Source of the DNA: an uncultured bacterium
GTDB taxonomy: Bacteria > Patescibacteriota > Minisyncoccia > Phycocordibacterales > UBA918
Length of the DNA: 47,313 nucleotides
Reading direction: 5' to 3'
NCBI GenBank assembly: GCA_950073265.1
Contig: CATMPJ010000004.1
Coordinates: 1-47,313 of the forward strand
Shown here: positions 2,336 through 5,008 of the stretch, piece by piece
Layout: each line of letters starts with the position of its first letter
Position numbering within the stretch: the first letter of the stretch is position 1
Translations under genes and position numbers: made by a program
Notes under the pieces: generated by a model
What the model was told of the DNA's origin: nothing
What the model saw: only the letters and a program-made list of their open reading frames with translations
Databases searched by the model: none

Positions 2336-2380
2336 AAAAGCCGATATCACAATAGGGTGATATCGGCTGTTTTTATTTTT
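2336..2380. terminator. Bidirectional intrinsic terminator between HTH gene and rnr
   Basis: AAAAGCCGATATCAC-aatagg-GTGATATCGGC then TTTTTATTTTTT. Confidence 0.85.
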
Positions 2381-4316
2381 TAGAAGTTAGTAGTTCGAAG
2401 TCGAGTTGTCGTTCGTCTTTATCGGCACGCAACAGCTTCACACGCACCTCATCACCTAAGCGGTACACTTTGCCAGTCTTTTTGCCTTTGATGCGGTATT
2501 TGCTCGCTTCATGTTCAAAGTAGTCGGACTTGATGCTAGAGAGTCGCACCATACCATCAGCCAGGGTATTCTTTTCTTGTACGTAGATACCCCAGTCGGT
2601 GACGCCGGTGATCACACCTTCAAATTCTTCACCAATGTGATTCATCAAATACTCAACTTGCTTGAATTTAATTGAATCGCGTTCGGCTGACACTGCTTCC
2701 ATTTCTCGCTCAGAGGATTTTACCGATATCTGTTCGAACTTCGCTGCTTCCTTTTGCCCAATAGCAGAACCATCAAGATGGCGCCGCAGCATGCGGTGTG
2801 CCATGAGGTCGGGGTAGCGCCTGATTGGTGAAGTGAAGTGGGTGTAGTACTTAAAGGCTAGGCCAAAGTGGCCGATGTTTTTAGTCGAATAAACTGCTTT
2901 GGCCATGCTGCGAATGCTGGCGGTCTTGATAAGATTTTCTTCCGGTTTACCCTCGACCTCCTTTAAGAGTTCATTAATAGCAGTTGCTTTTACGTAGCCT
3001 TTTTTAGTCTCAAATTCATGACCAAGGGCATGTACAAAGGTAGCGAGTTCTTCAATCTTGTCTGGATTTGGTACGTCGTGAATGCGATATACAAAAGCCA
3101 ACTCTTGATTTTTTGATTTAGCTAATTTGTTGATGAAGGTGGCAACTTCACGGTTGGCAAGCAACATGAAGTCTTCAATCATCATCATGGTTTCGGTGCG
3201 CACTTTGGTGAAAGCTCTGATTGGTGCACCACGTTCATCAAGTTCAAATTTAACTTCTGGCTGCTCAAAGGCGATAGCGCCGTTGGCATAACGCTTGCGG
3301 CGTAAAATTCGCCCAAGCTTCATCATCTGGTTGAGTTCATCCAGAAATTCGCCCGATTGTGTATCGAGAACTTGCTGGGCTTCCTCGTAAGAAAAGCGCT
3401 TGTCAGAGTGAATAATGGTTTGGCCATACCAAGCGTCTACTACGCGAGCGTCATCATCTAGTTCAAACACAGCAGAGAAGGCGAGGCGGTCTTCATTAGG
3501 GCGCAGGGAACACAGATCATTTGAAAGCACTTCCGGTAACATCGGAATCACGCGATCTACCAGATATACAGATGTACCTCGCTCACGTGCTTCTTGATCG
3601 AGTGGTTCGCCTTCGCGCACGTAATGAGATACATCAGCGATATGAATACCGACTTCGGTATTACCGTTTTCAAGCGTCTGGATTGAGAGCGCATCATCAA
3701 AATCTTTCGCGTCGTGCGGGTCGATAGTCATTGTCGTCACGCCACGAAAGTCTCGGCGTTTTGGATCCTTGAGGGCGTCAGCAAAAATCTGCTCTTTGTT
3801 TTCGTATAGTTTGTGGGCGGCTTCCTGAACTGATTCAGGAAACGCTTTTGAGAAACCGCCACTACGGATAATTGCTTGCATTTCGGTTTCGTGGTCGCCA
3901 GCGTGCCCTAGTGTCTCAACAATCTTAGCCAATGGTGGCAATGTCGGTGTCTTCCAGCTTTCAATCTCCACCACCACCTTCATGCCGATGTCATTTGGTG
4001 TAGCGTTAGGAAGAATGGGCTTAATATGGAGTCTGGAGTTATCAAGCTTTACCTGTAACACTTTTTTGCCATCGACAGTGTCTTCGACTACGTTTCCGAT
4101 TAGTTCACGATGAGCTGGTTTAATAACGTGATTAACTATGCCTTCTTGTCGTTTACCGGCTTGTTTTTTCTTGAGGGTGACTTCGACTAAGTCTCCATCG
4201 AACGCGAAGCCAAGGGCTTCGCGTTCGATAACCACATCTTCTTCATGATCGGGATGTTTTAGGAAGCCAGTCCCTTTACCACGCACCATAATTGGGCCTT
4301 CAATAGTTTTTTGCAT
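2373..4316 (-). CDS. rnr: Ribonuclease R (RNB-family 3'-5' exoribonuclease)
   Basis: TIDPHDAKDFDDALS, HYTHFTSPIRRYPDLMAHR and C-terminal S1 domain. Start set at MQKTIEGPIMVRG (4316), 7 nt after TATACT; the longer ORF start is doubtful. Confidence 0.93.
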   Translation of the reverse strand: MQKTIEGPIMVRGKGTGFLKHPDHEEDVVIEREALGFAFDGDLVEVTLKKKQAGKRQEGIVNHVIKPAHRELIGNVVEDTVDGKKVLQVKLDNSRLHIKPILPNATPNDIGMKVVVEIESWKTPTLPPLAKIVETLGHAGDHETEMQAIIRSGGFSKAFPESVQEAAHKLYENKEQIFADALKDPKRRDFRGVTTMTIDPHDAKDFDDALSIQTLENGNTEVGIHIADVSHYVREGEPLDQEARERGTSVYLVDRVIPMLPEVLSNDLCSLRPNEDRLAFSAVFELDDDARVVDAWYGQTIIHSDKRFSYEEAQQVLDTQSGEFLDELNQMMKLGRILRRKRYANGAIAFEQPEVKFELDERGAPIRAFTKVRTETMMMIEDFMLLANREVATFINKLAKSKNQELAFVYRIHDVPNPDKIEELATFVHALGHEFETKKGYVKATAINELLKEVEGKPEENLIKTASIRSMAKAVYSTKNIGHFGLAFKYYTHFTSPIRRYPDLMAHRMLRRHLDGSAIGQKEAAKFEQISVKSSEREMEAVSAERDSIKFKQVEYLMNHIGEEFEGVITGVTDWGIYVQEKNTLADGMVRLSSIKSDYFEHEASKYRIKGKKTGKVYRLGDEVRVKLLRADKDERQLDFELLTSKK

Positions 4317-4332
4317 TGCGCGCAGTATAACA

Positions 4333-4361
4333 TTGATGTGTACAAATAAAAGTTGTATATT
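4333..4361 (+). promoter_or_regulatory. Sigma70-type promoter TTGATG-17-TATATT (for an sRNA candidate)
   Basis: TTGATG 4333-4338, 17-nt spacer, TATATT 4356-4361. Confidence 0.6.
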
Positions 4362-4367
4362 ATTTTC

Positions 4368-4434
4368 GTCCTTCGGGACGGTTTCTCCAGAAGCCGGACC
4401 CCTTCCACCGACACGGTAGGGGTCCTTTTCTTTA
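4368..4434 (+). ncRNA. Candidate intergenic small RNA with three hairpins
   Basis: CGTCC-ttcg-GGACG; GGTTTC-tcca-GAAGCC; GGACCCCT-tcc-ACCG-aca-CGGT-AGGGGTCC followed by TTTTCTTT; consensus promoter upstream and no ORF. Confidence 0.55.
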
Positions 4435-4444
4435 CTATTTCCTA

Positions 4445-4472
4445 TTGACCTTTTTGGCTTATCTGCTATGCT
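4445..4472 (+). promoter_or_regulatory. rpsP promoter TTGACC-16-TATGCT
   Basis: -35 4445-4450, -10 4467-4472. Confidence 0.7.
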
Positions 4473-4483
4473 AGGCGCCACTT

Positions 4484-5008
4484 ATGTTAATGATGCGATT
4501 ACAGCGTGTGGGCCGCAAGAACGATGCTTCGTTCCGAATTGTGGTAACCGACAAACGCACCGGTCCAAAAAGCGATAAGCATGTCGATCGTCTTGGTTCA
4601 TACAATCCAAAAATGAATCAGGTACAACTCGATGCTGCAAAGGCAAAAGACTGGATTTCTAAAGGGGTGCAGCCGTCAGACACGGTGTACAACATCCTGG
4701 TGGGACAAGGCGTGATTGAAGGTAAGAAACGCAATGTTCTACCAAAAAAATCACCAATTATTGATGAAGAAGCGATAAAACGAGCTGAAGAAGAAGCTAA
4801 GGCCAAGGCTAAAGAAGAAGCGGAAGCAGCCGCTACGGCGCCAGCCGAAGAAGTCGTTGAAGAACCAACAGACACTGTAGAAGTCGATGTTGTGGCAGAC
4901 GAATCAGATCCAACCGACCACAGCGAGACAGCCGAAGAATCAGAAGAAGTAAAAGAAAAAGAAGCCGCAGAAAAAGCACAAGCCGCCGCTGATGCAGAAG
5001 CAGACTAG
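4484..5008 (+). CDS. rpsP: 30S ribosomal protein bS16 with long Ala/Glu/Lys-rich C-terminal extension
   Basis: MRLQRVGRKNDASFRIVVTDKRTGPKSDKHVDRLGSYNP; true start may be the ATG at 4490 or 4493. Confidence 0.93.
   Translation: MLMMRLQRVGRKNDASFRIVVTDKRTGPKSDKHVDRLGSYNPKMNQVQLDAAKAKDWISKGVQPSDTVYNILVGQGVIEGKKRNVLPKKSPIIDEEAIKRAEEEAKAKAKEEAEAAATAPAEEVVEEPTDTVEVDVVADESDPTDHSETAEESEEVKEKEAAEKAQAAADAEAD

Follow-up and report, generated by a model that had tools for sequence, protein, structure and literature searches.

A predicted short terminated transcription unit in a fast-changing slot between the divergent rnr and rpsP genes of a Patescibacteriota genome

The genes rnr (RNase R) and rpsP (ribosomal protein bS16) are divergent in the window, by which we mean the whole stretch of 47,313 nucleotides that was analyzed, and the 167 bases between them hold a plus-strand unit at positions 4333-4434. 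Is this unit a small RNA gene of its own, or does it belong to one of its two neighbors? The window comes from a genome of ~0.7 Mb in 30 contigs, of the Paceibacteria/Kaiserbacteria type. Small RNAs are little known in these streamlined, mostly uncultured bacteria, and our literature search found no study of sRNAs in them. The features of the locus are the following:

2373..4316, minus strand: rnr (RNase R), start ATG at 4316
4324..4332, minus strand: extended -10 box of rnr, TGTTATACT, from reading of the sequence; AGTATArCA recurs just 5' of rnr in relatives
4333..4361, plus strand: sigma-70-like promoter TTGATG-17-TATATT, 9/12 consensus matches, -35 at 4333-4338 and -10 at 4356-4361
4367..4380, plus strand: hairpin 1, CGTCC-TTCG-GGACG, with a C(UUCG)G tetraloop (sequence and fold)
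4380..4395, plus strand: hairpin 2, GGTTTC-TCCA-GAAGCC, with the loop UCCA (fold)
4396..4433, plus strand: intrinsic terminator, made of hairpin 3 and a U-rich tail, -19.6 kcal/mol, z -3.71
4445..4472, plus strand: rpsP's own promoter, TTGACC-16-TATGCT (promoter scan), 3' of the unit's terminator
4484..5008, plus strand: rpsP (ribosomal protein bS16), ATG at 4484

The predicted transcription start of the plus unit lies at about 4367-4369, and the promoter is found where the initial annotation had placed it. The unit thus appears to have its own promoter, as an autonomous intergenic sRNA gene does. The three consecutive hairpins announced for this region are also all present at 4367-4425. Hairpin 3, GGACCCCT...AGGGGTCC at 4396-4425, contains the inner hairpin ACCG-ACA-CGGT and is directly followed by the U-rich tail TTTTCTTT at 4426-4433, so that the unit has its own intrinsic terminator, another property of autonomous intergenic sRNA genes. 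As this terminator lies upstream of rpsP's own promoter, it cannot serve rpsP. A bidirectional terminator was rejected because the minus direction lacks a U-run. The region 4366-4434 folds at -31.9 kcal/mol (z -3.86), and none of 200 shuffles folded as well; this stability is owed mainly to the terminator hairpin, and the fold of the 33 nt before it (hairpins 1 and 2) is not significant when taken alone (z -1.48, P 0.09). A single fold dominates, the MFE structure representing 41% of the ensemble, and no competing antiterminator was seen in it. The RNA is nearly wholly paired, its loops being UUCG, UCCA and ACA, and the C-rich seed of some relatives (e.g. L033/L036) is not present unpaired in it.

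We then looked at the coding question on both strands. No start codon is present between the predicted start and the terminator of the plus unit. On the minus strand, the frame upstream of rnr is open to 4481 in the window, and a more upstream start of rnr had been named beforehand as a possible refutation of an RNA. Such a start was rejected since the upstream peptide of relatives is short, stop-broken and dissimilar (in L002, a stop lies 8 codons upstream of the rnr start), while the N-terminus M-x-K-T-x-E-G is common to the window and its relatives and the frame upstream of it is not. Thus, rnr begins at 4316, the region 4333-4434 is not part of it, and the absence of an ORF and of any upstream plus-strand gene are both borne out. 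Neither strand offers a coding explanation, as expected for an autonomous intergenic sRNA gene.

The unit is tightly packed against the promoter of rnr. Its -35 begins at the base that directly follows the extended -10 box of rnr, whose position on the minus strand predicts an rnr transcription start at or adjacent to the ATG, ~50 bp from the predicted start of the unit. Two polymerases could not sit together at these starts, judged from the size of their footprint. Since the -35 of the unit abuts the divergent extended -10, the footprints would overlap and only one promoter would be occupied at a time, and we infer that the two promoters interfere or compete. This situation resembles the bidirectional promoters of E. 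coli and Salmonella, in which both divergent promoters cannot hold RNA polymerase and the RNA of one side is often non-coding (PMC12825309, PMC10268837). These published promoters share one near-symmetric -10 (PMC12825309, PMC10268837), their starts are usually 18 bp apart (PMC10268837), and opposed polymerases at E. coli shared promoters compete only if one direction is strongly activated (PMC12825309). Here, in contrast, the -10 boxes are separate (4324-4329 on the minus strand, 4356-4361 on the plus strand), and a bidirectional promoter of the published kind was rejected on account of both the -10 boxes and the spacing of the starts. The unit illustrates how a very compact genome keeps divergent promoters apart.

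In order to place the unit among known RNAs, its sequence was compared with those of relatives and with Rfam. L002 and L019 fall in a single clade with the window, and all three retain the promoter in place and the terminator; their RNAs (71, 88 and 132 nt) are not alignable. No homologue of the window RNA was found among 99 relatives, the matches being limited to the start of rpsP and to one 28-nt piece in G068 (L016), which we took as chance because it lacks the promoter-terminator layout and lies in apparently repetitive coding sequence. Neither conservation nor covariation of the RNA could therefore be found in these 99 relatives. The RNA is single-copy in its genome, and a dispersed palindromic repeat (REP/MITE) was rejected on this basis. 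The Rfam search proposed in the initial annotation gave no family at cut-off. The best weak match, mmgR/suhB (RF00519), was rejected at 19 bits against a gathering cut-off of 41; ctRNA_p42d was also under its cut-off. The unit resembles mmgR/suhB by its length (~77 nt) and by a 5' hairpin and a terminator hairpin that align end to end, but the middle of the window RNA is paired and the host lineage is unrelated, so that the likeness probably reflects shared architecture only. With orphan intergenic bacterial sRNA genes, the unit shares its own promoter and intrinsic terminator, an intergenic position, the absence of an ORF and a folded product; unlike them, it has no conserved sequence or seed and is a prediction from sequence. 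Taken on its own as an sRNA candidate, the unit is of an ordinary kind. The proposed intergenic small RNA thus holds as an autonomous transcription unit, with promoter, terminator and no ORF, but is not supported as a conserved functional sRNA: it has no homologue in the genomes searched, the RNAs of its nearest relatives are unrelated, its 5' hairpins are not significant and no Rfam family reached its cut-off.

If the sequence of the unit is not retained, is its place? We compared 50 distinct rnr-rpsP intergenic regions, most of them from the window's family, the shortest of less than 100 and the longest of more than 1,100 bases; in most relatives, a promoter is found at the equivalent place 5' of rpsP. 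The slot has four kinds of content: nothing (e.g. L003, L006, L010); small ORFs, in most cases together with a terminator (e.g. L008, L026, L027, L031, L113, L117); long regions; and noncoding hairpin RNAs (window, L002, L013, L017, L019, L033, L036, L129, L130), most with a terminator call. The long slots of L011 and L014 have neither a clear ORF nor a terminator, and L011, the sister of L013, has no recognisable -10 either. The small ORFs are mostly dissimilar to each other, and seven small proteins of the slot had no match in Pfam. ORFs of ~76-190 codons occupy the slot in L008, L026, L027, L029, L031, L043, L047, L052, L113 and L117.

Promoter-like matches of the grade seen in the unit are common (6 found vs 4.7 expected in the 3.5 kb scanned), and it is their position in relatives that sets the unit above chance. 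The rnr -10 box could be identified by its pattern in 25 loci, of which 8 (window included) have a plus promoter starting 9-10 nt from this box vs 0.14 expected from shuffles, a count that overstates independence as the loci are related. In the tree, these loci are spread over several distinct branches, and the recurrent promoter feeds hairpin RNAs, small ORFs (L031, L052) or, once, nothing. A terminator was called in 7 of the 8 vs 10 of the 42 other regions (P 0.001), a comparison that ignores kinship and is partly an effect of length since short regions cannot hold a terminator. One of the seven calls, in L052, lies inside the small ORF, 3' of which a hairpin with a T-rich tail is also present; L005 has the promoter at the recurrent place without a terminator. 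That relatives carry unrelated small RNAs or small genes in the equivalent slot makes it probable that the unit is real. Its predicted elements, their order and their recurrence in position can be read directly from the DNA.

Some of the RNAs found in the slot of relatives look selected as RNAs, judging from their sequences. In L002, L013, L036, L033 and L008b, the portion 5' of the terminator is much more strongly folded than expected by chance. Moreover, L033 and L036 share a slot RNA with 3 pairs changed on both sides and none broken (z -11.3), and L013 and L017 share another with 4 such pairs and none broken (z -7.7); these counts are suggestive only, since each relies on two sequences and on a structure derived from them. 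The L033/L036 RNAs have in common a loop with a C-run followed by AGG, and the L013/L017 RNAs a stretch GCCCC..AAC..UG between hairpins 2 and 3.

We favor, with a probability of about 0.55, the reading that 4333-4434 is a genuine short terminated transcription unit in a slot of fast turnover, whose promoter competes with that of rnr and whose terminator shields rpsP. RNA polymerase would start at about 4368, make an almost entirely folded RNA of about 65 nt and stop at the intrinsic terminator (4396-4433), short of the separate promoter of rpsP. The terminator would keep the unit's transcription out of rpsP, insulation being its main use, and the RNA itself would be largely dispensable, lineage-specific and replaced in relatives by other hairpin RNAs, small ORFs or nothing. 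Insulation alone, however, does not require the degree of folding seen before the terminator in the five relatives cited above. The main rival is a functional small RNA whose targets in trans would be mRNAs or a protein, with a sequence evolving too fast to be traced across species. This possibility, which we hold only tentatively, is consistent with the autonomous, terminated and ORF-free unit, with the significantly folded RNAs in the equivalent slot of other species and with the alignable pairs L033/L036 and L013/L017, which show compensatory changes and no broken pairs. The window RNA itself argues against it, having no sequence homologue, no significant hairpins 1 and 2, almost no unpaired stretch as a seed and no Rfam match beyond the 19 bits of mmgR. 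A broader proposal seems unlikely to us: that in this family of Paceibacteria the slot gives rise again and again to short structured RNAs and small genes, with an rnr-locked plus promoter being reused for new, mutually unrelated RNAs, some of them acting on RNase R or ribosome economy. If a unit conserved in position and changing in sequence does adjoin a ribosomal-protein gene, it would offer a good opportunity to follow the emergence of small RNAs and small genes.

The other explanations are weaker still. The unit could be the remnant of a small gene that lost its ORF and left its promoter and terminator behind, since many relatives have small ORFs in an equivalent layout (L008, L031, L052, L113, L117) and L031 and L052 even share the promoter position; yet no trace of an ORF is left, and ORFs are scarce in the nearest relatives, L002 and L019, as well, so that the loss would be old and a useless terminator should have decayed, which makes this origin improbable. 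A leader or attenuator controlling the rpsP operon is more doubtful again: the unit is on the rpsP strand, upstream, readthrough of its terminator is possible and, like ribosomal-protein leaders, it is a structured RNA adjoining a ribosomal-protein gene, but it shows a single dominant fold with no competing antiterminator, and its RNA ends before the rpsP promoter and is therefore not part of the rpsP mRNA, for which reason a ribosomal-protein leader was rejected. Lowest of all we place a chance promoter-like match beside a random or relic palindrome, with no transcription; the abundance of such matches and the lack of sequence conservation agree with it, but the recurrent position of the promoter and the strength of the terminator do not.

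Other structured RNAs were encountered during these comparisons. In 5 loci, four from members of the genus and one from another genus, a ~90-nt element whose stem carries repeated GAGCGAG boxes is found 3' of the rpsP promoter and 5' of the rpsP ATG:

L019:2079-2168
L027:2915-3003
L113:1413-1503
L129:1850-1953
L008:1559-1645

Both sides are changed in 11 of its 21 predicted pairs. Its covariance model has matches in 68 of 397 genomes of the order (E <= 0.01, with rough E-values), at many places other than rpsP and with up to 8 copies per genome; several genomes have many, some in tandem. No match was found in the window's genome, nor any Rfam match in the loci scanned. The element looks like a dispersed structured repeat turned rpsP leader in some species.

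As to the standard RNAs of the window's genome (G000), RNase P RNA and 23S rRNA were found and SRP RNA (RF00169) had no match at E <= 0.001; it may be divergent or sit on missing sequence.

Finally, the slot of L129 and L130 holds an RNA of 246-269 nt; its end boxes are found again at other places in G006 and, in a looser form, in G104, G215 and G286. RNAs of 250-320 nt with a terminator, which have in common a GGAAGAAATCAAnnGAGATTCC box close to the 5' end and a CTAAACC box close to the 3' end, were located as follows:

L129, about 1525-1795
L130, minus strand
L150:1490-1740
L156
L157
L158, minus strand

The G215 copy weakly matches positions 233-470 of the bacterial 23S model (33.8 bits, under the cut-off, E 4e-9), and a complete 23S gene is present elsewhere in that genome; a free-standing mimic of 23S domain I is possible. 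Rfam scans gave no LSU match for the other copies, whose likeness to 23S is guessed from their boxes. L165 (G038:C3:52897-52967) also has a short match, to positions 2131-2210 of the 23S model (22.8 bits, under the cut-off), and is possibly an L1-type leader mimic.
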